Shown here in pieces: positions 3,083 to 22,597 of a stretch of 54,246 bases of DNA (position 1 is its first letter; the number at the start of each line of letters is the position of its first letter). Source of the stretch: a virus. The notes under the pieces are model-generated. The model ran no database searches, was not told the origin of the DNA, and saw only the letters and a program-made list of their open reading frames with translations. A program made the translations under genes and the position numbers. Where the stretch lies: positions 1 to 54,246 of IMG/VR virus record IMGVR_UViG_3300034198_004256. One strand, written 5' to 3'.

Positions 3083-3116
3083 TTTGGAATTGTTTTTTTG
3101 TTTTTATTTGTTTTTG

Positions 3117-4736: not shown

Positions 4737-4758
4737 ATTTATGTTGCGCAATTTTTTG

Positions 4759-4764
4759 TATATA
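4759..4764 (-). promoter_or_regulatory. TATATA element upstream of gp21, candidate late promoter
   Basis: TATATA on the minus strand, 22 bases before the gp21 ATG in the 55-base gap after gp20. It has the same core as the elements near 1253 and 9708. The context suits a late promoter, but no mapped start supports it. Confidence 0.25.
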
Positions 4765-4791
4765 TTTCATGTTTGGGGTATTTCTACGGGA

Positions 4792-6390
4792 TTAGATCCC
4801 TAGACCTCCAAGACCGAGATCGTCTCCTCCGCCTTCTTCAGCCTTTTTCTTCTTTTCTGCTTCTTTATCCTCTTTGGTTTTTAGGTTTTGAGCTAGATCG
4901 CTAGGATCCATTTTCAAATACTTTTTAACTAACCAATCTAGATCAAAGTATGGGATGTCATTCATGTTCTCGTCTGTCTCTACTAGATTATCTTTAAGTG
5001 CACTAATAAAGTCTAGGCGCTTTTGCATAATCTCCATTGTCTTTAATTCGTCGAACATATTATCTTTATTGTACTGAACTGAGATCATTGACTTAAGATT
5101 TAAGTCTTTCTGGAGTTCAGGGAATTTAAGACATACTTGAATGTAAAGTGGTTTAACAAGAAGTTCTTGGAAAGATGAACGTAATCTATTGATGAACTTA
5201 CTAAATTTAATCTCTTCTCTGATAAGACCTTCTGCAGTCATTTCGTATGTAGCAGGGCTGTCTTTATCGAAACGGCTGAATGGAATTTTAGAAGCCAACT
5301 TCAATTTATCATGGAAGTATTTAAGTGCGTCAGTATCGCTAAGATCTGGACCGTCATTTGCAAGAGTTTCAATTTCAGGTTGCTCGCCATCTTTAGAAGG
5401 TAACCAGTATTCTTTGTTGAAGCTCATCATTGGTTTACCGTTTACATGCATTGAACCTGAATCAAAATCAAAGTCAACAATCTCACGGTAGTTATTCATT
5501 AGCTGACCAAGTGATTGACGTGCTCTTGTTTTAGATTTACCACCTACTGGGATTAAGAATTTCATTCTATATGAAGCGTTCATTGTAGCCCAGATAACTC
5601 TTGTATGCTCCATGATACGTAGAAGATTGAAGGCTCTGACAAGGCGCTCTACGTAAGATACTCTTTCGTTTGTGGCGACTGATGAATAAGAGAGATAGAT
5701 TACTTGTGAATCGTAAAGCTTTCTTTGTTTAACTGGATCGTTCTTATGTTGATACCAGATTTTCTTATTCGTCTCTTTATCGACAGCAGGCATCAGGGAA
5801 ACTGGATCAATTTCTTTGAAACCAATAATCTCAGACTGATCGTCATTATAGATAATTTCAAATGATAAGTAGCCGTCAATCAACCATTTGCGGAAATAAT
5901 ACCAACCTGATTGGTCTTGAGTAAAACCAAAGTATTGATAGATTTGATTGTATGCTGTAACAATATATTTTTGAACGTCTTCAGATAGACCTAAATGTGA
6001 TGCATCTGGATACGCAAAATAGTTTTTACTATCATATACAACGGCCTCGTCGCATAATGTATCTAGAATATCTTCGATTTCATCTTGAGTAGCGAACTTT
6101 CTAAGCTCTATTCTTTTCTGCGGATATTGTTGTATGAAAAAACTGATACTCTTTTTAAGAGTTGTATCAGCCATTGATAATGCTGCGAATGGGTACCAGT
6201 AGTCTTCATTTTCTAGACCGTACGGGTTAATCATGGTATAACCGAAACGATCCTCTGTAACACCAATTGCTTGCGAGTTACGGATAATCATATCGTCATA
6301 CTTCATCCCTAAACTACTAAGATTCTGTAACGATTTTGAAATCGAGAATCTTCTACTAAAGGGTCCAAATCTGTCTAGAAATCCTGCCAT
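4792..6390 (-). CDS. 20: Portal protein (T4 gp20-like)
   Basis: A 532-residue protein (T4 gp20: 524) that forms the dodecameric vertex ring for DNA packaging and nucleates prohead assembly. The T4 pattern is followed throughout: an N-terminal CDEAVVYDSKN region; a WYYFRKWLIDGYLSFEIIY segment; IDPVSLMPAVDKET; a central LVRAFNLLRIMEHTRVIW helix; NKEYWLPSKDGEQPEIETLAND (matching the T4 'EDYWLQRRDGK...VDTLPG' region); and a C-terminal EEIKFSKFINRLRSSFQELLVKPL stretch. The tail is Lys/Glu-rich and ends Gly-rich. It heads the portal-protease-capsid series in T4 order. The leader is A-rich without Shine-Dalgarno. Confidence 0.93.
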   Translation of the reverse strand: MAGFLDRFGPFSRRFSISKSLQNLSSLGMKYDDMIIRNSQAIGVTEDRFGYTMINPYGLENEDYWYPFAALSMADTTLKKSISFFIQQYPQKRIELRKFATQDEIEDILDTLCDEAVVYDSKNYFAYPDASHLGLSEDVQKYIVTAYNQIYQYFGFTQDQSGWYYFRKWLIDGYLSFEIIYNDDQSEIIGFKEIDPVSLMPAVDKETNKKIWYQHKNDPVKQRKLYDSQVIYLSYSSVATNERVSYVERLVRAFNLLRIMEHTRVIWATMNASYRMKFLIPVGGKSKTRARQSLGQLMNNYREIVDFDFDSGSMHVNGKPMMSFNKEYWLPSKDGEQPEIETLANDGPDLSDTDALKYFHDKLKLASKIPFSRFDKDSPATYEMTAEGLIREEIKFSKFINRLRSSFQELLVKPLYIQVCLKFPELQKDLNLKSMISVQYNKDNMFDELKTMEIMQKRLDFISALKDNLVETDENMNDIPYFDLDWLVKKYLKMDPSDLAQNLKTKEDKEAEKKKKAEEGGGDDLGLGGLGI

Positions 6391-6394
6391 CTAA

Positions 6395-7003
6395 TTACTT
6401 TTTCTTGTTTATATATTTGCTATACCCAGACTCTACCTTTCTGATGTCCGTCTTCTTTATTTGTGCTAAATTAAGAAGCGGTACATACTTCCAACCCTCA
6501 GCTGAGACCGCCTTTGTGTTTTTTCTTTGATTAGTTACATATCTTTTAATTGCATATCCAAGACCTGCTTTATTTAGAAATGCTAATATAGTGTCAGCAT
6601 TAAAAGATAGAATAGGTTTTTGTTTCTTTGCCTGGCCAGGTGCTTTAGCCTCCTGTTCTTGTATTTTAGATAGAAAGTTTTTGTATATCTTATCTAAAAC
6701 TTGTAACTTTACCTTCTGTGGTAAATAATTAAGGTTAATACCTACATCGTTACCATCTACTCTGCCTAGACTTAATACTACTGGATTTGCATCCCATTGT
6801 TCTAATCTTTCCATAGTAACCGGATGTTCATATCTAAATATGTAAATTTTACCGGGTTGAAAGGGGCCTGATGTAGATTGTATACTTTTATCACCACTAC
6901 TTTTACCTACAGTTTTATACCATTCGTCAGCGGCCATTCTAGCATTGTCTAGACCTCTAGCATTTTGTACAAAGTTCTTAACCTCATCTGAAAGCTGACC
7001 CAT
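6395..7003 (-). CDS. Conserved-looking phage structural protein of unknown role, next to portal
   Basis: A 202-residue basic protein not confidently recognised. The middle (residues 47-110) has a pattern I associate with virion-type proteins of marine T4-like phages: KIYIFRYEHPVTMERLEQWDANPVVLSLGRVDGNDVG... then NLNYLP, a 'Y-x-P-x-T...L-x-x-[Y/W]-D-x-x-P-[V/L]-V' arrangement followed by a 'GLNLxYLP' type turn. The C-terminal third is Lys-rich. It overlaps gp4 by one base and ends four bases before gp20, so it is co-expressed with head genes. A head-neck or DNA-end function is plausible but not shown. Confidence 0.6.
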   Translation of the reverse strand: MGQLSDEVKNFVQNARGLDNARMAADEWYKTVGKSSGDKSIQSTSGPFQPGKIYIFRYEHPVTMERLEQWDANPVVLSLGRVDGNDVGINLNYLPQKVKLQVLDKIYKNFLSKIQEQEAKAPGQAKKQKPILSFNADTILAFLNKAGLGYAIKRYVTNQRKNTKAVSAEGWKYVPLLNLAQIKKTDIRKVESGYSKYINKKK

Positions 7004-7473
7004 TATTTAAGTGATTTTTCAGTTAGTATTATGTATTCCATTCCTATACTTTCTGCAACTTTCTTGGCTGCTTCAGCCTTGTGTTTGTTTTTTACAAATT
7101 CATTTGCTGCGTACTTATAATTATTAAGTGCCTTTTCTGTAACTCTCTTCGGTGCAGTAGGGGCTTTTAATAGAGAAGATGGTTTAATTTCAACTAGGTA
7201 CTTTTTTTCAAGGCCGTCTTTAGTTTTAACCTTCATAAAAAAGTCTATGTAATAGTTGTGGAACTTTTTAGTGATTGGGTTATAATACTTGATTTTAACG
7301 GCTTCTGAACTCCAGCTTAAAACATCCGTATTTTTATCACAGTAAACCATAAACTTATATTCCCAACTAGATCTGTATATTATTGGTTTTGGTCCAATAT
7401 ATTTACCATTAAGTTCCTCGTAGAAACCTTGTTTAAACTGACCTCTTTTGGGTTTTAAGTTTTTGATTGACAT
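7003..7473 (-). CDS. 4: Head completion protein (T4 gp4/gp50-like, nuclease fold)
   Basis: A 156-residue protein matching T4 gp4 (150) along its length. Features are IIYRSSWEYKFMVYCDKN, a SSEAVKIKYYNPITKKFHNYYIDF segment, YLVEIKPSS, a KRVTEKALNNYKYAANEF helix and a terminal GMEYIILTEKSL. The family has a TnsA-like PD-(D/E)xK nuclease fold: Asp in YIDF and Glu/Lys in VEIKP are the likely catalytic residues. In T4 it acts on the filled head just before tail joining. Start and the gp55 stop overlap (TAATG), so translation is probably coupled. Confidence 0.9.
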   Translation of the reverse strand: MSIKNLKPKRGQFKQGFYEELNGKYIGPKPIIYRSSWEYKFMVYCDKNTDVLSWSSEAVKIKYYNPITKKFHNYYIDFFMKVKTKDGLEKKYLVEIKPSSLLKAPTAPKRVTEKALNNYKYAANEFVKNKHKAEAAKKVAESIGMEYIILTEKSLK

Positions 7474-7937
7474 TAGATTGAATATATGCCTTCAGAATCC
7501 ATACCACCATTGATACTAATTGTACCACTGTATTTCTTAGGATATAATTTATTCCAGCCTTTAGCGTATCCCTTTTTAGCAATTTCAGTAAAGTACGCGA
7601 AAGCATTTTTATATTTAGGATTGAAACCTCTCCAGTATTTTAAGAGATCTAACATTGCAAAAGCAAGGCAGTCTTTCTTATCATCTTGATCAACATATTT
7701 CATTTTTGTGATAGCACGCTCTGCTAAAAGCATTAGCATTTTTTCAGCAGTAGGTGTAAGCTTGTCCTGTTCCTTTGATTTTACAATCTCGTCATAGAAG
7801 TCTTTGTTATTAAGATAATCTTTTTTTCTTTTTGATTTCGGCTTAACCTGTTTAGATTTAATCTCCTGTTCGATTTCTAGTGCTATCATATTTATTGGTT
7901 TATCATGACTTTCTAATCCGTCTTGTAATTCAATCAT
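7473..7937 (-). CDS. 55: Late-transcription sigma factor (T4 gp55-like)
   Basis: A 154-residue protein (T4 gp55: 185) directing host RNA polymerase to late promoters together with the sliding clamp. After a basic, variable N-terminus comes DYLNNKDFYDEIVKSK, as in T4 'YVNNKELLQAIIDWK'. Next is a helical block ending in DCLAFAMLDLLKYWRGFNPKYKNAFAYFTEIAKKGYAKGWNKL, the sigma region 2-like core ('...[22 protein letters not shown]' in T4). It is shorter at the C-terminus and ends in hydrophobic GIYSI, where T4 gp55 has its clamp-binding tail. It is first in a transcription unit with gp4, the unknown gene and gp20, behind a terminator and a candidate promoter. Confidence 0.8.
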   Translation of the reverse strand: MIELQDGLESHDKPINMIALEIEQEIKSKQVKPKSKRKKDYLNNKDFYDEIVKSKEQDKLTPTAEKMLMLLAERAITKMKYVDQDDKKDCLAFAMLDLLKYWRGFNPKYKNAFAYFTEIAKKGYAKGWNKLYPKKYSGTISINGGMDSEGIYSI

Positions 7938-10527: not shown

Positions 10528-12201
10528 CTAGTTGATTGTTTCAACTGTAAACTTGCTGAAGCCGTTGTCCTTGTATATTTCTATCTTCTTATCGAATATC
10601 TCCTGGGGCAGTACTGTGTGGTTGATAACAAAAGTATTAAGGTTATTCTCCTTAATGACCTTATTTAATATCTTAAGTATACTATAGACACCATCTGCAT
10701 CAACTGAGCTAAATATCTCATCTAGGAATAAGATGTTCAATTGCGGAAATCTTAACTTCAGTAATTTGATTATGGCAATGACTATGATAAAGTCGGCCTT
10801 CTTTCTTTCACCAGTACTTAAAGTTTTTGGATTAACGTCTTCACCTAGGTGGTTGATTATACAATTGAATTTATCGTCAAATCTTATATGGAAGCTTAAG
10901 TGCATTTCAGAAACCATTTGGGCTATTGACGTGTTAAGACCTGGTAGAATTGTCTTAACTGCCATGTTCTTAACGCCGTCTTCACCTAATATCATTTCCA
11001 TTAACGACATGAAGTTGTCTTCGTCGTATCTTGTCATTGCAACAAGATTCTTTTTAGTCTTATTGTTTTTGAACTCATCTACAAGACTTGTAAGTTGAGC
11101 AAACTGACCAGTTGAATTGATACCGTTTGACAAAGAAACAAGCTCAGCTTTTATAGAATTGATTCTAGAGTTTAGGTCCCATATTTTACTTGATACAGTG
11201 CTCTGTTTCTTTCTGTTTTCATTAAATTCAGATTTAAGATTGTTGATATCCTCTTGTATCTGAGATATTACAGATGGTAATGAAACCGCTATATCTTCAT
11301 TTTGTTGCTTTATATGTAAATGGATGCCTTCGTCTAGAGGTGATTCACATGTTGGGCACTTTTTGTTTTCGTATAGCTTAAGTTTCCTTTTTGCATTATT
11401 TAGAACCTCATTGTTCTCACTTAGCTCGCTATTCTTAGATGAGATCTTGTCTTCTATCTCGTCATGTAATGTGGTTAACTTAGAACTAGCATCATCAAGC
11501 TTTTTCTTATCGGCAGAAAGAGCAATTGCCTCTTTTTTAAGTGAATCAATCTTTTCTTTATTTTCATCCGCAGATATTTTCTCAAGCTCGTCAATCTTAT
11601 TCAATGTAGAAGTGATACTGGCATCGATTGCTCTCAACTCATCTTCGATTGATTTAAGATCGTCTTTGATTTCCTTTTTAATCTCTTTGACACGGTTGTA
11701 CATGTCATTGATAATAGAGAAACCAAATAATTTATCCACGATGTTTCGCTTGTCCTTTGGGCTCATCGTTAAAAATGACTTAAAGTCATTTACAGATAAT
11801 ATGATAATGTTCTTGAATACATGATAAGGTATTTCGTAAACCTCATTTTCAAGATAGTCTTGCACATTACTCATACCTGCTTGGTCTAATTCTAAACCAT
11901 CTACAGAAGCTGTAAACAACTTTGGGGCAATACCTCTTTCAACTACTACTGATTTGTTACCACACTTCAATTTAATACGGACCCAAAGGTTCTTGTTGAT
12001 CCTGTTAGGAAGATCAGGTAGATTAAAGTCTTCTAGCTTACCATACAGCCCATATATGATGGCGTTTGCTATAGTAGATTTACCATAACCGTTACCACCT
12101 AGAACCAGATATAAAGAGCTTTTGTTGTTGTCGAACTCTAGTGTCTGTATCTGATTGCCGTATGATGCAAAATTCTTAAATGATATCTCTTCTATTCTCA
12201 T
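10528..12201 (-). CDS. 46: Recombination nuclease ATPase subunit (T4 gp46, Rad50-like)
   Basis: A 557-residue SMC/Rad50-type ATPase, matching T4 gp46 (560). It has Walker A GGNGYGKST (35-43), a long coiled coil interrupted by the zinc-hook CPTC (282-285), ABC signature LSTGERKK, and Walker B NILFLDEIFSSVD near the C-terminus. With gp47 it resects DNA ends for recombination-dependent replication and degrades host DNA. The start overlaps the gp47 stop by four bases, so the two are translationally coupled. Confidence 0.96.
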   Translation of the reverse strand: MRIEEISFKNFASYGNQIQTLEFDNNKSSLYLVLGGNGYGKSTIANAIIYGLYGKLEDFNLPDLPNRINKNLWVRIKLKCGNKSVVVERGIAPKLFTASVDGLELDQAGMSNVQDYLENEVYEIPYHVFKNIIILSVNDFKSFLTMSPKDKRNIVDKLFGFSIINDMYNRVKEIKKEIKDDLKSIEDELRAIDASITSTLNKIDELEKISADENKEKIDSLKKEAIALSADKKKLDDASSKLTTLHDEIEDKISSKNSELSENNEVLNNAKRKLKLYENKKCPTCESPLDEGIHLHIKQQNEDIAVSLPSVISQIQEDINNLKSEFNENRKKQSTVSSKIWDLNSRINSIKAELVSLSNGINSTGQFAQLTSLVDEFKNNKTKKNLVAMTRYDEDNFMSLMEMILGEDGVKNMAVKTILPGLNTSIAQMVSEMHLSFHIRFDDKFNCIINHLGEDVNPKTLSTGERKKADFIIVIAIIKLLKLRFPQLNILFLDEIFSSVDADGVYSILKILNKVIKENNLNTFVINHTVLPQEIFDKKIEIYKDNGFSKFTVETIN

Positions 12202-13283
12202 TCCGCCTTGTATTTGTTGGTACAGTCTGTGTATAGTTTATTGATTGTAAGCTCAAGTCTTTTCTTGTCATCATCATCGATGTTCATGCTTTCAATAAAC
12301 TTATCACAAAGGTTAATCACGTTAAAATTCTTGTAGCCGTTTTGTATCTCTTCAGAGATTAAATCTATATCGATGTATGTCTTCTCATCATAGATGTTTG
12401 GCTCTATCTTTCTAGCTTCAGCTTGTACCATCGACATGAAACCTGAAAGATTATATTTAATAGGAATGTCGGATGCAATATAAAGATCGACAAAATTATT
12501 TCTCATCAAGTCTTTAATCTCATCGATTGTTTTATCCAGTATCTTAGTAAGATTTAACTTAACGAATTTTGGAGTATAATTATTTTCAATGAACTGATGC
12601 TCACCTGTTTCAAAGTCTAGTAAGAATACACCTTTTGCGTTATCACCATCTGAACGTGTCATTTGATAGGCATTACCTACCATGACAACGTTTTTATTGC
12701 GCTGTGCATAATGTATATGACCAGAGTAGACTCTTTTATATGCTGCAAACTTACCGACAGGAGTCCCATGCTCTTGCTTAGATTTTTTATTAAGCATCAA
12801 GCCTTTCATTTCACTATGTGAAAAGATATAGTCGGCTTTACCAGAGTACTTCTCTAGATATTCAGCTTCGACCTCAGGTGTTGAGCACCATGGCAACATC
12901 AAACATTTGGCTGTACCGAAATCTACGACGTGAGGTTGCTTATAGACATATAGATTTGGAATAAACTTAAAGCTGTCAAGTGAAGATACATCATTGCTGT
13001 GCTTGTAGTAGATATCATGGTTACCAACAATGATATGTGTCTCGATCATTTGAGAAATTCTAGTGAACAAATCAATAGCGTAGTTGTTAAACTTTAGGTT
13101 AACAGACTGTCTGTTGTCGAATACATCCCCAAGTTGTATCAGCACATCACCTGGCCTAACATTTTCTTTAAGCATAGGTATAAAGAAGTCTTCGAAATAA
13201 CTTTTCGTAATCTCGAACCATTCCATGCTACTGGCTCTTATACCGAAATGTATATCACCTAGAATGAATATGCGTTTTGCCAT
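12198..13283 (-). CDS. 47: Recombination nuclease subunit (T4 gp47, Mre11-like)
   Basis: A 361-residue Mre11/SbcD-type phosphoesterase (T4 gp47: 339). Metal-binding motifs are in order: GDIHFG (D10, H12), GDVFDNR (52-58), GNHD (87-90), HSEM, and SGHIHY. It partners gp46, encoded immediately downstream with overlapping ends. It begins one base after the stop of the 144-residue gene. Confidence 0.96.
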   Translation of the reverse strand: MAKRIFILGDIHFGIRASSMEWFEITKSYFEDFFIPMLKENVRPGDVLIQLGDVFDNRQSVNLKFNNYAIDLFTRISQMIETHIIVGNHDIYYKHSNDVSSLDSFKFIPNLYVYKQPHVVDFGTAKCLMLPWCSTPEVEAEYLEKYSGKADYIFSHSEMKGLMLNKKSKQEHGTPVGKFAAYKRVYSGHIHYAQRNKNVVMVGNAYQMTRSDGDNAKGVFLLDFETGEHQFIENNYTPKFVKLNLTKILDKTIDEIKDLMRNNFVDLYIASDIPIKYNLSGFMSMVQAEARKIEPNIYDEKTYIDIDLISEEIQNGYKNFNVINLCDKFIESMNIDDDDKKRLELTINKLYTDCTNKYKAE

Positions 13284-13721: not shown

Positions 13722-15029
13722 TTAGTTTATTCCAGAGCTTGAAGTCTCGTTAGTTTCATTCAATCTCATATAATCATAGTTTATAGTGAATTTGCACTTT
13801 AAGTTTTTACCTTCTCCATCTCTTATCTTTAGGATCTTTAACCAGTACTCAAATTCAGAGTGCATTAACTCATCTTGTATGATTGCATAAATCATATCGG
13901 CAGTATGTGCAAGACCTGCTGATTCAGATATATCTTCCATTCCGATGTCAGTTGAGTTATAAGCACCTCTTTTAATCTGTGTTGCAGTAACTATTAACCA
14001 TTTATTTCTATCAGCCATTGCCCTTAAGTCTTCGGCGATTTGTTTGATTTTCAAATACGTGTTCTCACTATTTGGATTTCTATAGTTAGATAAAATATTG
14101 ATGTAGTCGATTACTATTGCTCTTAGCTTGATACCACTTGTTTCCTCAAGGTCTAGTAAATAGTTCTCAATATCAGGCACCGTTGCTTGACTTGTAGGAA
14201 ACTTCTTAACGAATAATTTACCAGGTGGCAGCAGACCATCACCGACGGTCTCAAGTTTTCTTTTTAAGTATACTGGATCTTTAGACTTAGTGTCGTATTC
14301 AGACATACTGATATTAAGGAGGTTTGCACCGACCCTTTTAATAACCTTATGGCCAGCCATTTCAGCTGTTATAAATACAGTGTTGTAACCAAGTCTTACA
14401 TAGTTAGCAGCTTCATTAGCCAACCAAATAGATTTGCCAACGTTCTGCTCACCTGCATAAACTATAAGTGAACATGGGTCATATCCACCATTCGTTACTC
14501 TATCGATAAATGCATATCCTGAAGATATCTTATCTGATGTATGTTGTATGTGATGTTCAGGGTTAAAGAAGTCTAGACCAAGATCTTTATCAAAGTTGAT
14601 TTTGTTTCTATCATTGATAGTTTCTCTAAACTTTGAAATAATAGATTCAACATTATCTGGAGAAACATTTGCAGTCTTAACATATTCAATACCATCTATA
14701 AGACTTTTATCAAAGTTTCTCCATTTAATCCATGACTCAGCGGTTGATTCCAACCAATCTTCATCATAGTCGCTTAGGTTAACATCATATACCGTTTCAA
14801 TTACATTGTCTGTAACTTTATCCTTGGCTTTCTTTGAGTTCTGAACCAGTAATTTCATTTGAGATTGAGATGGTGTCTCATTAAATTTCTCATAAAACTT
14901 CTGGGCCAAAAAGGCCATGATGTCAATGTCAGGATTAGTAAAAAAACCTTCTTTGACGATAGGTAAATACTTGGGTTGCTTTATGCAAAAATTAAAGAAT
15001 AATTTTTCATAATTGGAATTGAACTGCAT
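13722..15029 (-). CDS. 41: Replicative DNA helicase (T4 gp41, DnaB family)
   Basis: A 435-residue DnaB-type hexameric helicase (T4 gp41: 475) that unwinds the fork and works with primase gp61. A helical N-terminal domain (1-150) precedes the RecA-type core. The core has Walker A GEQNVGKS (193-200), a following VFITAEMAG motif, Walker B AIVIDYINIL, and WLIVTATQIKRG with a sensor Gln. The C-terminal YDYMRLNE is usual for the family. It lies close behind uvsX and the 97-residue gene, as in the T4 uvsX-40-41 cluster. Confidence 0.93.
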   Translation of the reverse strand: MQFNSNYEKLFFNFCIKQPKYLPIVKEGFFTNPDIDIMAFLAQKFYEKFNETPSQSQMKLLVQNSKKAKDKVTDNVIETVYDVNLSDYDEDWLESTAESWIKWRNFDKSLIDGIEYVKTANVSPDNVESIISKFRETINDRNKINFDKDLGLDFFNPEHHIQHTSDKISSGYAFIDRVTNGGYDPCSLIVYAGEQNVGKSIWLANEAANYVRLGYNTVFITAEMAGHKVIKRVGANLLNISMSEYDTKSKDPVYLKRKLETVGDGLLPPGKLFVKKFPTSQATVPDIENYLLDLEETSGIKLRAIVIDYINILSNYRNPNSENTYLKIKQIAEDLRAMADRNKWLIVTATQIKRGAYNSTDIGMEDISESAGLAHTADMIYAIIQDELMHSEFEYWLKILKIRDGEGKNLKCKFTINYDYMRLNETNETSSSGIN

Positions 15030-15030
15030 A

Positions 15031-15324
15031 TTAAATGAAATCGTTTTTAAGTACTTTATATGTAGTGCTATCCTTTGTTTCTCTTGTTACATTAACGTAA
15101 CCATCATGCACTAAACCATTAAGTGATACAATGATAGTATCTAGATACTCTTGACCTAGTTTCTTGACAACAAAGTTATCAGTAAACGTTATCTCACCAG
15201 TTCCCTCTTTCTCGTAATGGCGCTTAATAATAAAGTATAAGATATCTTCACCCGTAGGATATCCTGGCATGTCTTTGTGCATGCCTAGGATATACTTGAG
15301 TTTTATTTTACTTGTGTTAAACAT
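15031..15324 (-). CDS. Small winged-helix-like protein between uvsX and helicase
   Basis: A 97-residue protein, not recognised. The order of helix, helix, TIIVSLNGLVHDGYVNVTRETKDSTTYKVLKNDF (helix then two-strand wing) resembles a winged-helix DNA-binding fold. It overlaps the uvsX stop by one base and ends one base before the helicase gene, so it is tightly co-expressed with the recombination and replication machinery. A helicase-loading or regulatory role is possible, but nothing in the sequence proves it; T4 gp59 is larger and different. Confidence 0.6.
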   Translation of the reverse strand: MFNTSKIKLKYILGMHKDMPGYPTGEDILYFIIKRHYEKEGTGEITFTDNFVVKKLGQEYLDTIIVSLNGLVHDGYVNVTRETKDSTTYKVLKNDFI

Positions 15325-16574
15325 TATTCTGAGTCATCTTCAAAAATAGTTTCTTCATCGATATCAAAATCATCAATACCTGCGTCTTCTATTCCGTAAT
15401 TAAACATAGGTTGTATGTGTGCATCGATTGCATCAATAACTTCCGGTGTAAATACAGTGTCTGTAAAGAACTCTGTACCGTCTACTGTTCTACCTAAATG
15501 ACGTACTACAATTTTATTAGATGAATCAGATGGTTCGAAATACTTAGTAGTGATTTCACCAGTTTCAGTATCTGTATATGAAAATGGTACTAAACCGATC
15601 TGATCCTTTTCTTTAAGCTTACCGTATTCCTTTTCAGAATATACATATCCTTTCTGGATTCCACATGTGTCCCATGAAATGTAATTCTCTAGGCCAACAT
15701 ATTCATTCATGCCTTTATTGAAAGGTATTTGGAATTTAATTGAGGTTGGTTTAGCAAATCGGTTTTTATTTGGACGTGCTGTTACGATGATACCAGTCTG
15801 TTCAGTTACTTTCTTACCATCTACTTTCTTAACCTCTTTTAATTTTGCTTTGCTTAAGAATAGGATAATAGATGCTGCGTATTCTGGACCTGTACCACCG
15901 CCTGCTTTTGCTTCTGGATAAAAGTCCTGTGTCATATAGACGTGGTTGCTAAAGATAAATGTTGCCTTGATCTCTGCCATCTTATTCATGATGATACGGA
16001 AGATAGACTTCATTTTCTTAGATCTAGACATATCTGCCTTATCAGAACCTGAAATTGCATCATCAACCTCTTTCTTAGAAGCAAGGTTACCTGCTGAGTC
16101 TAATACAAATAGGATACGCGGAATTTCATAACCACCTCTCTTTGCATCGATAAGTGTTTGACATGTTTGAGTTACAATAGTTCTAAACTCTTCAACTGTA
16201 CCGATTGGTTCGTAACGAACTTTACTGGTATCAATACCGAATTTAACCATCTGCTCTTTATCAACTGCGTTTTCTGAGTCGAAATAGATTACATAGTAAC
16301 CTTCTGTAATGTGATGCTTAACAGTATTCAAGATTAAGTATGTTTTACCGGTACCTGATGGTCCTGCTAATGCTATTGAACGATTGCTAGGATATCCCTT
16401 ACGTAATGAACCGGTAAGACATGCATTCAGATGGTAATTACCACTGTGTATAAATCTATCGATTTCACTAAATTCACTAATTTCCATTACTGAACCGAGT
16501 GAACTTGTTTTTGCAAGTTCTTTATTTAGATCGTCAAAACTAAATTCACCTTTTGCTTTTGTTGTTTTTGCCAT
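15324..16574 (-). CDS. uvsX: Recombinase UvsX (RecA/Rad51 family)
   Basis: A 416-residue strand-exchange protein (T4 UvsX: 391). Walker A is GPSGTGKT (71-78), followed by YYVIYFDSENAVD with the catalytic Glu region, and Walker B ILFVLDSAGNL. FIFSNHVY and GGGTGPEYAASIILFL loops match the L1/L2 areas. The acidic C-terminal tail (DAGIDDFDIDEETIFEDDSE) is typical of UvsX and RecA. UvsY (30435-30872) and gp32 partners are also present. Confidence 0.95.
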   Translation of the reverse strand: MAKTTKAKGEFSFDDLNKELAKTSSLGSVMEISEFSEIDRFIHSGNYHLNACLTGSLRKGYPSNRSIALAGPSGTGKTYLILNTVKHHITEGYYVIYFDSENAVDKEQMVKFGIDTSKVRYEPIGTVEEFRTIVTQTCQTLIDAKRGGYEIPRILFVLDSAGNLASKKEVDDAISGSDKADMSRSKKMKSIFRIIMNKMAEIKATFIFSNHVYMTQDFYPEAKAGGGTGPEYAASIILFLSKAKLKEVKKVDGKKVTEQTGIIVTARPNKNRFAKPTSIKFQIPFNKGMNEYVGLENYISWDTCGIQKGYVYSEKEYGKLKEKDQIGLVPFSYTDTETGEITTKYFEPSDSSNKIVVRHLGRTVDGTEFFTDTVFTPEVIDAIDAHIQPMFNYGIEDAGIDDFDIDEETIFEDDSE

Positions 16575-16587
16575 TTTATATTTTATT

Positions 16588-17742
16588 TTAGAATAATGCT
16601 GTAGAATATATCAAATTTCTATCTAATGTTTTCATGCCGATTGCTGACAGTACACGATTAAGAGGATCGATCATGCATTTTTCGAATTGCTCTTCATAAT
16701 CAATAGGAGGTGCAAATTCATAGGGATGTGATCCAGCTTTGAATGCAAATACATTACAGTCTTTATCAGTAGTATGATACATCTTTAACTTCTCGGCGTT
16801 ATCAATCAATTGATACTTATTCTTAAACTTCGAACCGTTAAGTAAGAAGTTATAATAACCTGCGGATCTTACGGTCATTGGGCACCCAGAAGCAAATTCA
16901 AAAGTATCAACATCGCTGACGATATATTTTTGATAGTTATTCATTTTAAGGTTATAGCAAATATCTTCAATGTTTGCAACCTTAAATTCTTTCTTTGCTT
17001 CTTTTAGAAATTGTACAATTTCAGAAAGCTCTAGGTCATCTTTACCGAGTATAAGCTTGATAGCATCATTAAGTCGCTTTCTTGCAAATAACGGTGTCGA
17101 TGATTGAATAATCTCAAAACCTTTAGTCTTGATTTTTGTCAATGGGTCATAATGATTACCAGGATCGGCCCATACAATATTCTGGATGTATTTTTTCTTA
17201 GCTAACCATATTGCATTTTTAGCAATTGACTCAAGCTCAAAGTCTAAGAAATTTTCTGTAGCATAACCATCAGCATACTTCTGGAGTACTTTCTTAATAT
17301 AGTCGTTCAGACGGTATTTGTAAATGTCACTGATGAAATCCTTTTCAGAGCCGACCCATGTTGATTTAGTAATAGCTTCCTCAAATGATAAGTAGCAGGA
17401 ATCGGTATCAATATAGATTACAACAGGCTTAAGAACTTGACCCTTAACTTCAATACCAAGCTTTTCATGCAGCTCCTTGTCTTTATGCCAGAACTCGGTA
17501 AAATAAGTGTTCACCATCTTTTCTGTGTAAAGGATCGCATTCTGGCCTTGTAGAGTAATACTTTCGGCAATATTGATATTAAAGAAATAAAAGTACTCAT
17601 TACCGAAGGCGCCGTAGATAGAATTAAGGATTCGCTTAACAGACTGTTCTTGATTAAAGAATTGGTTAATTAAATCTTCAGTATCTTTGTATTTTTGCTT
17701 AAGCTCTTCTGATGTTAATTCGTCTAAATTCATATTAGTCAT
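16588..17742 (-). CDS. 43B: DNA polymerase gp43, C-terminal part (split family B polymerase)
   Basis: A 384-residue polypeptide carrying the second part of a T4 gp43-type polymerase. Motif B is KRILNSIYGAFGN (36-48) and motif C is IYIDTDSCYL with catalytic Asp112 and Asp114. Thumb and C-terminal regions follow, ending DRNLIYSTALF, where T4 gp43 has its clamp-binding tail. It lacks exonuclease and motif A, which are on the gene at 20745-22148. The break lies in the fingers, between the two long helices. The ATG is eight bases inside the clamp gene end, so the fragment is probably translated by coupling with gp45. The two parts must associate to make an active enzyme; split gp43 genes are known in some T4 relatives. 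Confidence 0.93.
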   Translation of the reverse strand: MTNMNLDELTSEELKQKYKDTEDLINQFFNQEQSVKRILNSIYGAFGNEYFYFFNINIAESITLQGQNAILYTEKMVNTYFTEFWHKDKELHEKLGIEVKGQVLKPVVIYIDTDSCYLSFEEAITKSTWVGSEKDFISDIYKYRLNDYIKKVLQKYADGYATENFLDFELESIAKNAIWLAKKKYIQNIVWADPGNHYDPLTKIKTKGFEIIQSSTPLFARKRLNDAIKLILGKDDLELSEIVQFLKEAKKEFKVANIEDICYNLKMNNYQKYIVSDVDTFEFASGCPMTVRSAGYYNFLLNGSKFKNKYQLIDNAEKLKMYHTTDKDCNVFAFKAGSHPYEFAPPIDYEEQFEKCMIDPLNRVLSAIGMKTLDRNLIYSTALF

Positions 17743-18496
17743 TTGAACAAACTGATACTGTCAATAACGTATTGCTATCTTTTGATTTGAAAATTAGTTT
17801 ATTAGGACAGACAGAAACTGTGTATGCTTCTTTATCTAAGAGGCTGAAGTATTTTTTATACAACATTACTTCAACACCGCTTTCGACAGATGATGCATCA
17901 GTCTGTGTAATTTTAGCATCATAAGAGTCACCCTTGATTCTTACTGCATCATGTGTATACTGGATCTTGAATGTATCAGAGTCTTTATCTAGATTAAAAA
18001 GTGAACTGATCTTAGATTGCATAAATGGTTCTAGATCAAAATCAAACATAACATCTTTCTTATTAAAGATAGCCTTGATTTGATCTGTTGATAGATCCAT
18101 GAAACCTAAAGTAGGATCGCTACATGCAACAGTAATTCTAAGATTAGAGCTCTGTACGCTTATTTTTGTTGCAATGTATTCACCTTCGATTTCTGCACAC
18201 TCAATTTCACCAGTAAGCTCGTCATTGTCAACATTGCTAAAGTTTCTTAATGCTTCTAGAACTTTAGAACCATTGAAAAACGATATCTTCAAATCTTTAT
18301 CAGGTTTATTTTCAAATGAAAAGATTTCATTAAATAGAACAGACTGTACTTTAACTGCATCCCTTTCAGGCAAGTAAACGCTAGACACTAGATTTTCATC
18401 TGCTACCTTTAGGTAAACGAATTTGTCGATTGATGTAAGTTTCGATATAAAGGATATCATCGCTTCAGCATCGATTCTTGTTAGATTTATTTTCAT
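17735..18496 (-). CDS. 45: Sliding clamp (T4 gp45-like)
   Basis: A 253-residue protein (T4 gp45: 228) forming the trimeric ring that tethers the polymerase and, in T4, activates late transcription with gp55 and gp33. It has the two-domain, strand-rich composition of clamps. The N-terminal segment LTRIDAEAMISFISKLTSIDKFVYLKV and the repeated acidic strands (VDNDELTGEIECAEIEGEYIATKI) fit the family. No loader genes (gp44/gp62) are in the window. The 3' end overlaps the polymerase C-terminal gene by eight bases. Assignment rests on pattern, length and neighbour. Confidence 0.8.
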   Translation of the reverse strand: MKINLTRIDAEAMISFISKLTSIDKFVYLKVADENLVSSVYLPERDAVKVQSVLFNEIFSFENKPDKDLKISFFNGSKVLEALRNFSNVDNDELTGEIECAEIEGEYIATKISVQSSNLRITVACSDPTLGFMDLSTDQIKAIFNKKDVMFDFDLEPFMQSKISSLFNLDKDSDTFKIQYTHDAVRIKGDSYDAKITQTDASSVESGVEVMLYKKYFSLLDKEAYTVSVCPNKLIFKSKDSNTLLTVSVCSND

Positions 18497-18547
18497 ATAA
18501 AATTGCTTTAGATATTATACTAAACAGTATTTAATAGTTTCAAACAT

Positions 18548-18575
18548 AAAAAAGCCTCTACAGAAGCAGAGGCTT
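18548..18575 (-). terminator. Intrinsic terminator after the H1-like gene
   Basis: A stem AAGCCTCT/AGAGGCTT with an eight-base loop, flanked by A-runs and T-runs, is usable in both directions. It separates the H1-like gene from the clamp gene. Confidence 0.85.
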
Positions 18576-18598
18576 TTTTATAACCAGTAAAATCAGTA

Positions 18599-18781
18599 TT
18601 AAGCTTTTTCGCTGTTCTTGATTTCTTGCACTTCAGAACGAACTTCTTGTGCCATTTGTTTCAAAGTTTGCATTGCACCGCGAAGACGGGTACCTGCAGA
18701 CTTGTTACCTTTTGTGTAGAAAGATTCAGCGTCTTTTTCAACTGACTCTAACAAAGATTTGATGTTAGTAAACTTTTCCAT
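18599..18781 (-). CDS. Histone H1-like (Hc1-type) DNA-binding protein
   Basis: A 60-residue protein closely resembling the short histone H1/Hc1-like proteins common in Bacteroidota. Shared features are an N-terminal helix (MEKFTNIKSLLESVEKDAESFY), the K-G-N-K-x-A-G-T-R-x-R-x-A-M-Q-x-L-K core, and an AQEVRSEVQEIKN tail. These proteins bind DNA with Lys/Arg-rich helices. The gene sits between the clamp and ribonucleotide reductase genes with its own strong terminator. Likely acquired from a host; possible roles are compaction of phage DNA or interference with host nucleoid proteins (inference). Confidence 0.82.
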   Translation of the reverse strand: MEKFTNIKSLLESVEKDAESFYTKGNKSAGTRLRGAMQTLKQMAQEVRSEVQEIKNSEKA

Positions 18782-18829
18782 TTTTATTAGATTTTAGATT
18801 TATATTGTTATGATTTATTATGTTTCAAT

Positions 18830-20686
18830 TTATTTTATTTCACATGCACCTCCTGCACAGGCTACTTCACCTTTAAGATCTGTATTGTCTTCTATTTCAA
18901 TGATTTTAGATAGATCAACCTTTGTTAAAGATTTCATCATTTCATTGTATTTCTCTTCAGTACAGTCTTCGAAAGGAGCTTGTATGTAAGTGCCTCCATC
19001 ATATGGTAATACAGAAAGTCCGTTGTAACAGTTTCTATTTTCCCACATCCATTCACCAACTCCGTCCCATTCGTCTTGCTTGATACTTACAGTAGCTGAG
19101 ATATTATGGGTATTCATTCCGCCTCTATGGCCAGGCTTAATCCAGTTATTGTAGAACCATTTAACTCTTTCTAATAGATCGTATGCTGATTCGTGTCTAA
19201 TGATAGAACCTGCCGGAGCTTTCTGTGGAATAGAGATAACAGCCGTATCATGAGGTCTGAAGTACTCATCTTCTACTAATTCAGGATGGTAAATAGAAAG
19301 ATATTGATAGATTGCTTCATTTTTACCTACTCTGATTCGGCGCATATAGAAATCATTATGCCATGCATGTATACCGGATGAGCAGCCTAATGTCAAAGAA
19401 CTTGTACCTGCTGGTTTGATAGTTGTAACACGTGCAGCTTTATTGATACCAAGTAGATCTGCTACTCTAGCGTTTTCAGTTTTGGCGCAATCTGCGGCCT
19501 CTTTTAAAGAGAACTTCTGAGCTTTACCACTACCGATGCCAGTTAAACCGATACCTACAAGTGCGTCTTTCTCAGTAGTACGTTGCCATATTGGACGTAA
19601 ATAATGGAAGTCTGTGTAACCGGCTTGTAATGTACCAATAAATGTAGCAGCTGTTACACGTGCATTAAGATCTTCTTGTGATTCAACATCTGATACGTTT
19701 ACTTCAGTTAGGTTACAGAACTGATAAGGACGTAGTGCAATTTCACAACAAGGATTAGTACCCCAATCTTTATCATTAGTAAAGTAGATGCCTGGTTCGC
19801 CTGAGCCTGAAGCCTCAATTTTCTTCCATAGATCTAGGAAAAACTCTTTAGTAACTTTGTTTCTAACAAGAACTGCAGAGTTATTAGCACGACCTCTTTG
19901 TGAGTTTAATTCCCACCAGCTACCAGACTTACATGAAATCATATCTTCGTCATCAGCACTAAAAAGGCTAATAAGAGCTGCTCTACGAATACCTCCTGCA
20001 AGTACTGCATCTGCAATATGGCATATAATATCATGTACCTCAATTGTTGTAAGCTTATCATTGTTTTGCTTTTGTGATAAAATACCTTCGATTTTAATTA
20101 AGCACTCTTTAAGAGGTTGCGGGCCTGGGGCTTTACCACCTGATGTGATAAGTTTAGCACCCTTTGGTCGAATATCTCTAAAGTCAAATTCAATAGTTGA
20201 GCCACCGTGAAAATAAGACTTCATCAATACCTTGATTGAATCAGCCCAACCCTCGATGCTGTCTGCAACTAGAAATCTTCTTTTACGATTTGGATTAGGT
20301 CTGTTGATTTCAGGTAGATCTTCAACGTGATGTTTCTGAACACTGAAACCTACACCAGTTCCGCCTAGCAATAGGAACATCACCTCACCAAATGAGCGCC
20401 AGTCATCTACAGGTAGATACGCACAGTTGTAAATTCTATTTGGTGAAATTTCAATTGGCTTACCGCCGAATTGTAAAGATCTCATTGACGGTAGAACCAT
20501 TTTACCGTATACAGCTTTGTACTTTTCTCTGATCTCATCTTCAAGTACTGGGTACTTCTTGATGTGCATCTCCATGTTACGAGTTACTAACTCTTCCCAT
20601 GTTTCTCTTCTCTCAAACTCAGGTAGATACCTTGAGTATTTCATGTGCACCGTAATGTCACTGAGGATCTCGTTGGATAATTCCAT
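18830..20686 (-). CDS. nrdJ: Adenosylcobalamin-dependent (class II) ribonucleotide reductase
   Basis: A 618-residue single-chain reductase making deoxynucleotides for phage replication. It resembles the Lactobacillus-type ribonucleoside-triphosphate reductase. Cys88 (YNCAYLP) and Cys324 (QFCNL) are the substrate-site pair. NPCCE (311-315) gives the Asn, thiyl Cys313 and Glu315. LLGGTGVGFSVQ follows the family pattern. A C-terminal Cys610/Cys615 pair (CAGGAC) shuttles electrons. No small subunit is needed or present. It is shorter than the 739-residue Lactobacillus enzyme, so an allosteric part may be reduced. Unlike T4's oxygen-dependent class I enzyme it works without oxygen but needs B12 from the host. 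It lies between the two polymerase genes. Confidence 0.93.
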   Translation of the reverse strand: MELSNEILSDITVHMKYSRYLPEFERRETWEELVTRNMEMHIKKYPVLEDEIREKYKAVYGKMVLPSMRSLQFGGKPIEISPNRIYNCAYLPVDDWRSFGEVMFLLLGGTGVGFSVQKHHVEDLPEINRPNPNRKRRFLVADSIEGWADSIKVLMKSYFHGGSTIEFDFRDIRPKGAKLITSGGKAPGPQPLKECLIKIEGILSQKQNNDKLTTIEVHDIICHIADAVLAGGIRRAALISLFSADDEDMISCKSGSWWELNSQRGRANNSAVLVRNKVTKEFFLDLWKKIEASGSGEPGIYFTNDKDWGTNPCCEIALRPYQFCNLTEVNVSDVESQEDLNARVTAATFIGTLQAGYTDFHYLRPIWQRTTEKDALVGIGLTGIGSGKAQKFSLKEAADCAKTENARVADLLGINKAARVTTIKPAGTSSLTLGCSSGIHAWHNDFYMRRIRVGKNEAIYQYLSIYHPELVEDEYFRPHDTAVISIPQKAPAGSIIRHESAYDLLERVKWFYNNWIKPGHRGGMNTHNISATVSIKQDEWDGVGEWMWENRNCYNGLSVLPYDGGTYIQAPFEDCTEEKYNEMMKSLTKVDLSKIIEIEDNTDLKGEVACAGGACEIK

Positions 20687-20744
20687 AAAAATTCTGTCTT
20701 TTTTTAATTTATTTTGTAGGGTATATAATTTTTTTCCAGAGGAA

Positions 20745-22148
20745 TTAAGCCTTTTCTTTCAGTTTTTCCGAAATCTTTTCTAATTCCATTTTGTATTCAA
20801 ACATCTTTTTCTTATATTCACGTCTCTTTGCATATAGATCAGTAAGTACAAGCTTAAGAATTGATGGTTCTTTTGTATAAACACCGCCTGCTGAAGTGAC
20901 TGTAAATTTTTCTTTATCGTATTCATCAGCTTTACTCTGGGGTACCATATCAACATAAGAATCTGGTGATATATTAAATTGACGCATAATAGATGGGTAT
21001 AGAGAGGCAAAGTCAAAACAGGCTACCGCTCTATGTTTACCAACAACTGGCTGCTTAACAAAAGCACCAGTATATTGCTCATTCTTTTCTTTCTCTTTTT
21101 GATATGGCTTAACTGCCATTACTTTACCTTCAGCAAGAAGATTTCTTGCAATAAGAGATTCAGTGATCGCTACAGGAGAACCTGCTTTATAGAAACTGAT
21201 CTTACAGATATTAGAGAGCGTGAGTACTACTTGTAATGTCTTAAGCTTTTGGTCCATCAAGTATACTAGAATACTGTCTACTGCATTATAGTAAAGATAC
21301 TTTTGATAGTCATCTTCATACAGCTGCTGTAAGCCACCGTCGTATTTAATTTTACCAACTCCGATTGTTTGCATTGCTGCGGTATTCAACTGATTGTTTT
21401 CTTTAACAGCGATGCTTCGATCCCAGTTAGAATATAGATCCATGTAATCGACAATACCTATATGGTACGGCAGACCATCTCTTGTTAGAGTGCCAGTTGG
21501 CGATGCTTCAGCAGGATCAATCTGTAGGCGCTTACATCTGTTTACAATATATTTCCAGTCAAAGTTGATACAGTTCCAACCACTGAGCATTGGAAACTTT
21601 GGCATAAACTTATTGATGAACGTATAGACTAGATCATATTCAGTATTGAACTTAATGTATTTGATTTCCCAGTTAATACCGAATTTCTCAAAGTATTTGT
21701 TGGTATCAGCTTTAACCTTTTCTTGCGCTTTCTGATCAAAGTCTTTTAGACCCAACACGATAACCTGATGATTTGGTGTAACTACAGAGATGGTTAAAAT
21801 TTTATTATTTGCTAACTCAGGTTCTGGGAAACCATCAGTTACTTCAGTTTCAATATCGAAAAAGAAAGTCTTCGGGAAATTATACCCGAAGATCTTTTCA
21901 CTATCTTCCTGTGGAAGTCTTTCGATAAATTCAATCAAACCATGTTTAGATATCTTCTTTTCATATGATGCTCTTACTGGCTTACCATCCCAATTTATAT
22001 TATGGACGCTTCTACGCTTATCTGTATCTTCACAGGTATACCAGTTTGGGAATTGAGTAGTGTCGTATGTTTTTAATTCAACATCACCATTCTCATTGAA
22101 AAAACTAAATGTAACTTGATACTCAAGTTGTTCGATATCTAAAAGCAT
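20745..22148 (-). CDS. 43A: DNA polymerase gp43, N-terminal part: proofreading exonuclease plus motif A
   Basis: A 467-residue polypeptide. It has an N-terminal domain, then the 3'-5' exonuclease with ExoI FDIET (Asp98, Glu100), ExoII NCINFD (Asp197) and ExoIII YYNAVD (Asp291). Polymerase motif A follows at DFASLYPS (379-386). The chain stops after one fingers helix (AKRREYKKKMFEYKMELEKI). Motifs B and C are on the gene at 16588-17742, three kilobases downstream. The end is a clean stop (TAA at 20747-20745) and no remnant of the missing part follows. Exonuclease residues are all present, so proofreading should be active. Confidence 0.95.
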   Translation of the reverse strand: MLLDIEQLEYQVTFSFFNENGDVELKTYDTTQFPNWYTCEDTDKRRSVHNINWDGKPVRASYEKKISKHGLIEFIERLPQEDSEKIFGYNFPKTFFFDIETEVTDGFPEPELANNKILTISVVTPNHQVIVLGLKDFDQKAQEKVKADTNKYFEKFGINWEIKYIKFNTEYDLVYTFINKFMPKFPMLSGWNCINFDWKYIVNRCKRLQIDPAEASPTGTLTRDGLPYHIGIVDYMDLYSNWDRSIAVKENNQLNTAAMQTIGVGKIKYDGGLQQLYEDDYQKYLYYNAVDSILVYLMDQKLKTLQVVLTLSNICKISFYKAGSPVAITESLIARNLLAEGKVMAVKPYQKEKEKNEQYTGAFVKQPVVGKHRAVACFDFASLYPSIMRQFNISPDSYVDMVPQSKADEYDKEKFTVTSAGGVYTKEPSILKLVLTDLYAKRREYKKKMFEYKMELEKISEKLKEKA

Positions 22149-22153
22149 ACTTA

Positions 22154-22597
22154 TTATTTTGAATCAGTTGAACCAAATCCGCCTTCACCTCTATCAGATT
22201 GCATATCTGCAAAAAGCTCCTCTTCACTATGTGCTAGTTCTACAGGCACATAATTCATTTGTATACAAAGTAGCTGGATAATCTTGTCGGCTGGTTGAAT
22301 AACTTGAGGTGATGTACCCACGTTTTTAATGTCAATGTGAATTTCACCCTGATATGATTCGTCAATTACACATGCACCTACTAATAGATTTTTCTTTGCA
22401 GCAACGCCTGATTTGTTGAATGCGATTAGTGCATGCCCTTCAGGTACTCTAGCCTTAACTCCTGATGGAATCAAAACAGATTGGCCTGGTTCTAATACTT
22501 GTGGAAGAAAATCTTCAGGTACATATAGATCTATACCTGCGTCATTTGAATGGGCTCTTGTTGGGGTTTTAACCTCTCTTACTTTAAATATCTTCAT
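22154..22597 (-). CDS. dut: dUTPase (trimeric dUTP diphosphatase)
   Basis: A 147-residue enzyme cleaving dUTP to dUMP and pyrophosphate, preventing uracil incorporation and feeding dTMP synthesis. The five family motifs are present: NDAGIDLYVP, NKSGVAAKK, the GACVIDESYQGEI segment with the catalytic Asp, the QPADKIIQLL segment and the C-terminal RGEGGFGSTDS. It ends five bases before the polymerase N-terminal gene and belongs to the nucleotide/replication unit. Confidence 0.95.
   Translation of the reverse strand: MKIFKVREVKTPTRAHSNDAGIDLYVPEDFLPQVLEPGQSVLIPSGVKARVPEGHALIAFNKSGVAAKKNLLVGACVIDESYQGEIHIDIKNVGTSPQVIQPADKIIQLLCIQMNYVPVELAHSEEELFADMQSDRGEGGFGSTDSK

Follow-up and report, generated by a model that had tools for sequence, protein, structure and literature searches.

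A family B DNA polymerase encoded by two genes on either side of the sliding clamp gene in a mostly uncultured phage lineage

The IMG/VR virus record IMGVR_UViG_3300034198_004256 (positions 1 to 54,246) is a virus fragment of 54,246 bases, analysed here over its whole length and referred to below as the window. Its minus strand carries two genes, here called polN and polC, that encode the N- and C-terminal halves of a family B DNA polymerase of the T4 gp43 type and lie on either side of a sliding clamp gene. The two products very probably form an obligate two-chain replicase that would be assembled without splicing. The arrangement is a fixed rule of a large, mostly uncultured phage lineage. 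This reading is carried by computational results on homology, the position of the split, the conservation of catalytic residues and the linkage of the clamp gene to polC, and by searches that found no other polymerase gene. The features of the two genes are as follows.

20745..22148, minus strand: polN, N-terminal half of the family B DNA polymerase, 467 aa, with the exonuclease motifs, motif A and the first fingers helix
20991..21017, minus strand: motif A of polN, residues 378-386, FDFASLYPS; D379 is invariant in 50 sequences
20748..20858, minus strand: C-terminal end of polN, residues 431-467, first fingers helix (T4/RB69 alignment), ending at about T4 gp43 residue 512
16588..17742, minus strand: polC, C-terminal half, 384 aa, with the second fingers helix, motifs B and C, thumb and tail
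17611..17637, minus strand: motif B of polC, residues 36-44, KRILNSIYG
17398..17415, minus strand: motif C of polC, residues 110-115, YIDTDS
16591..16617, minus strand: C-terminal tail of polC, residues 376-384, NLIYSTALF; putative clamp-binding segment, judged by its position

The two polymerase genes and the position of the cut

The two open reading frames (ORFs) are separated by 3,002 nt and read as complementary pieces of one family B model, with no catalytic motif missing. PolN covers positions 22-146 of the Pfam model DNA_pol_B (PF00136, E = 2.1e-17) and polC positions 134-356 (E = 2.8e-18), and polN also matches DNA_pol_B_exo1 (E = 3.3e-14). Positions 109-497 of PHROG 262 are matched by polN and 485-843 by polC, and in RB69 gp43 (PDB) residues 110-501 align with polN and 559-818 with polC. 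Two half-sized PHROG profiles, 2062 (502 positions) and 1918 (382 positions), match polN and polC, respectively, nearly to their ends; both clusters are titled just DNA polymerase and are silent on the split.

Conserved residues were read from alignments of 50 polN and 59 polC sequences. The names of the motifs are labels placed on aligned conserved residues, and we take FDFASLYPS to be motif A, KRILNSIYG motif B and YIDTDS motif C. Invariant positions are D98, E100, D197, D291 and the motif A residue D379 in polN, and K36, N40, Y43, G44, D112, D114 and K182-Y185 in polC, where the KKKY residues are present alongside motifs B and C. PolN encodes the entire proofreading site. Family B catalysis needs the aspartates of both motif A and motif C. 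Here they are carried by different chains (D379 on polN, D112 and D114 on polC), so neither half should polymerise alone. By its residues the pair fits the T4 gp43 type of family B; being encoded as two polypeptides, it would represent a two-chain variant and not a standard member of that type. The initial annotation, made from the sequence without database searches, had placed ExoI-III and motif A on one gene and motifs B and C on another, with a clamp, an H1-like protein and a ribonucleotide reductase in the 3 kb between them; the ORFs and motifs are as it described, and all three intervening genes were identified. Comparison with locus L005, one of the closest kin of the window, gave dN/dS values of 0.060/1.06 for polN and 0.069/2.29 for polC, with dS close to saturation; both halves are under purifying selection.

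The split position was mapped on T4 gp43 residues for 25 representatives. In the window, polN ends at residue 512 and polC starts at residue 513, which agrees with the earlier statement that the cut lies in the fingers and leaves one helix on each half. All 25 representatives are split at the fingers tip (T4 gp43 approximately 494-530). The intact polymerases of cyanophage S-SM1 and pelagiphage Mosig are shorter at exactly this point, so the fingers tip appears to tolerate change.

From these data we infer how the enzyme would be put together. PolN and polC would be translated separately and would assemble without covalent joining, the cut at the tip of the fingers coiled coil letting the two helices pack as they do in the one-chain enzyme. 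The palm would be completed by both chains, with polN bringing the proofreading site and motif A, and polC bringing motifs B and C, the thumb and a C-terminal tail, the probable site of clamp binding. PolC would be made together with its clamp, and polN with nucleotide-supply genes. The initial annotation stated that the parts of split gp43 enzymes act together, and the same presumably applies here. When polC was modelled alone, pLDDT fell below 50 at residues 38-62 (motif B) and 183-213 (part of the palm), a disorder that is expected if polN is needed.

The clamp, the gap genes and the arrangement in related phages

On the minus strand the gene order is dUTPase, polN, ribonucleotide reductase, Hc1-like protein, clamp, polC, UvsX, a 97-aa protein and a DnaB/gp41-like helicase. 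The features besides the polymerase genes are:

22154..22597, minus strand: dUTPase, directly upstream of polN (Pfam, PHROG)
18830..20686, minus strand: ribonucleotide reductase (RNR), 618 aa, class II insertion domain PF21995 (phrog_367, E = 1.1e-128)
18599..18781, minus strand: Hc1 (histone H1-like) protein, 60 aa (PF07432, E = 6.8e-25)
18547..18580, minus strand: intrinsic-terminator-like hairpin and T tail just past the Hc1 gene (z = -3.8)
18514..18543, minus strand: promoter-like site TTGAAA-18-TATAAT, 11/12, top score of 31 in the scan
17735..18496, minus strand: sliding clamp, PCNA/gp45 fold, 253 aa (predicted structure)
17735..17742, minus strand: overlap of clamp stop and polC start, 8 nt
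15324..16574, minus strand: UvsX/RecA-like recombinase, downstream of polC (Pfam, PHROG)
13722..15029, minus strand: gp41/DnaB-like replicative helicase (Pfam, PHROG)

The clamp protein had no match in Pfam or PHROG. A structural model built from a 45-sequence alignment (pLDDT 90) resembled the archaeal PCNA of A. fulgidus (Z = 19.1) and T4 gp45 (Z = 18.3, rmsd 2.6, 208 aligned residues), and the gene is predicted on this basis to encode a sliding clamp of the PCNA/gp45 fold.

An IMG/VR scan with polC returned 119 relatives, the best 80 of which were kept for locus counts. Because iteration of the polN profile absorbed intact and polC sequences, its counts were not used and polN was placed by BLAST. 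PolN was found on 64 of the 80 loci, all 64 of which also carry the clamp gene, and in every locus with all three genes (64/64) the clamp lies between the halves. The initial annotation had proposed looking for an intact gene in relatives; in none of the 64 loci with both halves were these found in one ORF. The stretch from polN to polC measures 992-5,772 nt. The clamp gene is present in 79/80 loci. In 72 of the 79 its end is no more than 20 nt from polC (49 nt in one, 173-721 nt in six), and UvsX follows polC in 78/80. The translational coupling of clamp and polC that had been suggested is borne out by a real overlap in the window, but the 8-nt overlap is confined to its nearest relatives (5/79 loci).

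The cultured phages PAU, MA9V-1 and pT24 have the same split, with the clamp gene between the halves and the clamp independently matched. PTm1 has the split with the clamp between the halves as well, the clamp being seen by the iterated profile alone. This profile includes itself, so that its E-values are less clean, and the independent clamp search is the cleaner test; it gave a match in five of eight records and none in MaF61, PTm1 and Lak-A2. Flavobacterium phage MaF61 has an intact polymerase gene of 994 aa, a one-chain counterpart of the two halves. An IMG/VR scan with the MaF61 polymerase found no intact relative, and one with PAU polC matched PAU itself alone; both used patterns from short peptides and are hence weak.

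The halves are much further apart in the huge-phage branch, at approximately 41-132 kb in LR756502 and in six similar IMG/VR records, and at approximately 221 kb in Lak-A2. PolN was unseen in the other 15 of 21 IMG/VR records of the huge-phage kind, which are possibly fragments, so this says little. In 24 of 35 loci of this branch (L097-L131) a clamp profile match lies upstream of polC, 0.05-6.1 kb off, and in LR756502 the clamp is approximately 9.5 kb from polC. The clamp gene therefore tends to remain near polC, and it is polN that changes place.

In the huge-phage branch, 41 of the 63 polC loci that could be resolved (66 were fetched and three were unresolved) also have an insert of 36-48 nt that interrupts codons of the motif B region. 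An in-frame stop occurs in 40 of the 41, and a GC-rich hairpin (CCCCC...GGGGG) was found in 39 by script and in the other two by eye; an earlier, overlapping set comprised 17 hairpin-bearing loci with one hairpin each, always in polC. There are 29 distinct insert sequences, with lengths in all three frames and at several codon positions. Inspection by eye showed synonymous codons (CTT/CTA, GCT/GCA, GTT/GTT, TCT/TCA) on the two sides of 19 of the 29, those at Leu, Ala, Val and Ser codons, as would be expected if these codons served for take-off and landing; the other ten are at Tyr codons (one with TAC on both sides, one ambiguous, eight unmatched). Examples are L103 8127-8165 and L120 8103-8139, with L186, L176, L200 and others in L145-L210. 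Matched codons, a stop and a stem-loop characterise bypassing in T4 gene 60, counterparts of which have long been presumed, according to PMC5009743. By analogy with that gene, the inserts are candidates for programmed ribosome bypassing.

The initial annotation considered the set of genes in the gap and the clamp coupling unusual. The counts point the other way, as a clamp gene (64/64) and an RNR large-subunit-like ORF (61/64) are common to the gaps of the IMG/VR loci, and an NrdB-like ORF is present in 56/64 (the one tested matched Pfam Ribonuc_red_sm). The group formed by the window and its closest kin (L003-L007) has no NrdB in the gap, and its RNR differs from that of the other loci. As the window RNR was undetected by tblastn in L008 and L010-L082, what is conserved between polN and the clamp appears to be a place for an RNR and not an ortholog; the RNR cluster that runs across the gaps is a single-linkage one. 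The Hc1 protein matches the full Pfam model, has no PHROG match, and was found in 9/64 IMG/VR gaps and in LR756500. Elsewhere in the window, the region 1322-7937, near the replication genes, contains a late sigma factor gene as well as T4-type head genes (major head protein, protease, portal, DNA end protector, head closure), and SbcC/SbcD-like subunits are encoded at 10528-13283. The 1122-aa product of 23555-26923 matches Pfam solely through a cytidylyltransferase-like domain in its middle (residues 436-571).

Terminator-like sites occur upstream of the clamp gene in 26 of 68 distinct intergenic stretches, against 0.2 expected in mononucleotide shuffles. In fixed 150-nt stretches they were seen before the clamp in 23/64, after polN in 13/56 and after RNR in 16/51, and were rare or absent after polC (0/68), inside polC (0/65) and inside polN (1/56). 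PolN is separated from clamp-polC by at least one such hairpin in 39 of 59 distinct gaps, and these predictions make it probable that most of these phages transcribe the two separately. A promoter scan of the window showed no excess of sites (31, with 37.5 in shuffles).

Alternative explanations and the history of the split

The split is almost certainly not a product of faulty assembly or sequencing: nothing was found in favour of this, and the arrangement recurs in all 64 contigs with the three genes and in complete genomes of cultured phages. It is also highly improbable that the halves are joined by a split intein or a trans-splicing intron. Split inteins do occur in the lineage, near motif C of polC in PTm1, Lak-A2 and LR756500, but no intein domain was detected in either half or anywhere in the window, no Rfam intron was found between 16000 and 23000 (weak matches before the clamp were all below cut-offs), and the end of polN and the start of polC are plain fingers-helix sequence. 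The two gap genes besides the clamp are both identified, as RNR and Hc1-like, and neither is an endonuclease; Pfam and Rfam searches of the window are in accord with the earlier remark that no homing endonuclease or intron is left in the gap.

The intein-bearing polC genes are those of PTm1 (L086 12522-15328), Lak-A2 (L094 7902-10053) and LR756500 (L088 29721-33121), where polC is cut again near motif C, the pieces give Intein_splicing matches and the enzyme is in three gene pieces. The PTm1 record already labels one piece 'intein-containing split DNA polymerase precursor'. The lineage appears to have two kinds of split, one intein-bearing and one, in the fingers, without an intein.

Another explanation is that polN is now a free exonuclease and polC a relic, the genome being copied by a different polymerase. 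PolN does carry all exonuclease motifs, and a review (PMC7824862) reports that in its group 2.2, to which Lak-B8 and PTm1 belong, a split PolIII-alpha occurs together with the family B enzyme. PolC is, however, as well kept as polN, with invariant residues in motifs B and C. The models for PolIII-alpha and family A (PolA) (PF07733 and PF00476) had no match in 15 records each, with positive controls in 10/14. This runs counter to the PolIII-alpha described in that source, a protein that the Pfam model may overlook. Searches with PF00136 found the two halves alone in the window and no second polB, no intact polB in the records of 20 relatives (20.8-294 kb), and no intact copy in MA9V-1, PAU, PTm1, pT24, LR756500, LR756502 and Lak-A2 (213-642 kb), where LR756502 gave a stray 38-position match below the cut-off. 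A second intact gp43 gene, which the initial annotation named as the finding that would refute it, was found neither in the window nor in any of these records. We regard the relic explanation as very improbable.

Some observations count against the two-chain replicase. The window is a 54-kb fragment, and an intact gene could lie in the missing part. The polC model is of low overall confidence (pLDDT 72.9, pTM 0.45). In the proposed clamp-binding tail, Y379, L383 and F384 are invariant among the 59 aligned sequences, but the LF ending is missing from the polC tails of MA9V-1, PAU, PTm1 and pT24. Finally, 20 of the 59 distinct gaps have no terminator-like hairpin.

In tree reconstructions, the split lineage and MaF61 form one group against T4, Acinetobacter phage 133, S-SM1 and Mosig (support 100). 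The intact polymerase of MaF61, which has a very long branch, is placed inside the split group or next to it, and Lak-A2 and the isolates are long-branched too. Holding the 32 split rows together was not rejected (AU test, p = 0.325). A single origin of the split is compatible with these data, if less than certain given the long branch of MaF61. Distances among N-halves and among C-halves are closely correlated (Mantel r = 0.968, 0/999 permutations), so no swapping of one half is seen; the correlation would reflect joint inheritance and not contact. On the broadest interpretation, which we put forward tentatively as a possibility short of even chances, a single ancient split would have produced an obligate two-subunit replicase that serves an entire lineage of jumbo and huge phages, with the halves in separate transcription units and their assembly a control point, and the split would have persisted as the two genes moved up to 221 kb from each other and as split inteins and stop-bearing hairpins cut polC further.

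How the clamp gene came to lie between the halves may be approached through gene order. S-SM1 has the order gp43, uvsX, gp41, and in T4 the clamp gene 45 is upstream of 43; by this comparison polC seems to hold the ancestral place of gene 43, and polN seems either to have been relocated or to be the half retained from a duplicated gene 43. The split could instead be the scar of a departed homing endonuclease or intron, with the clamp and other genes later inserted between the halves. Aeromonas phage 25 offers a precedent, its annotation placing a homing endonuclease between 43A and 43B and, within 43B, an intron, but the window gap is without any endonuclease, and insertion alone poorly explains the presence of a core gene in it. 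PolC moreover keeps the S-SM1-like place of gp43 before uvsX and gp41, and transfer of polN, or duplication of gene 43 followed by loss of opposite halves, explains the clamp in the gap. We consider the scar origin unlikely, if by no means far-fetched.

Comparison with known split polymerases

Split gp43 genes were already known in T4 relatives, such as Aeromonas phage 25 and Acinetobacter phage 133. The gp43A/gp43B pair of phage 133 resembles polN and polC in being cut at the fingers tip (T4 510/511, compared with 512/513 in the window). Its clamp, loader and regA genes lie upstream of 43A as in T4 and not between the halves, and its gap holds small ORFs and a phosphatase gene. Phage 133 groups with T4, and the window clade is separate (99-100 SH-aLRT), so the split in 133 would be of independent origin. 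Aeromonas phage 25 likewise has a split polB, annotated as gp43A/gp43B, but its record shows a homing endonuclease in the gap and a group I intron within 43B, and the clamp gene is not between the halves. Gene 43 was not in the Aeh1 stretch examined, and nothing was concluded from it.

The family B polymerase of Rhodothermus phage RM378 is also encoded by two genes. The initial annotation had named RM378 alongside Aeromonas phages as a parallel. RM378 was rejected as a close parallel: p024 carries the exonuclease domain and p092 the polymerase domain from profile position 43, the cut falling between the two domains and before motif A, not in the fingers as in the window, and the genes being approximately 57 kb apart. 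The Aeromonas phage 25 parallel is limited by the endonuclease in its gap. PAU, MA9V-1, pT24 and PTm1 share the split with the clamp gene between the halves and differ in the other gap genes; in PTm1, unlike the window, polC is further cut by a split intein. The archaeal PolB3 of Methanobacteriales and Nanoarchaeum is a two-gene family B polymerase ascribed to inteins (PMC4104785); no intein was found in the window. In Jug phages, DNA polymerase genes are described as split by endonuclease sequences (PMC12363816).

The results extend scattered reports of split gp43 genes to a fixed, lineage-wide architecture, in which the catalytic aspartates are on separate and probably separately transcribed genes. 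Such a natural two-part enzyme bears on how split enzymes become permanent, on the dosage of proofreading relative to synthesis, and on the movement of core genes. For annotation, polN and polC need to be treated jointly, as a lone half resembles a truncated gene. No account of the clamp-between-halves rule or of its probable separate transcription was found in the literature covered, which did not include subscription papers, and a prior description is possible. Compared with the known systems, in which split gp43 and its annotated pieces were already on record, what is new here is a split with the clamp gene between the halves as the rule of a lineage.

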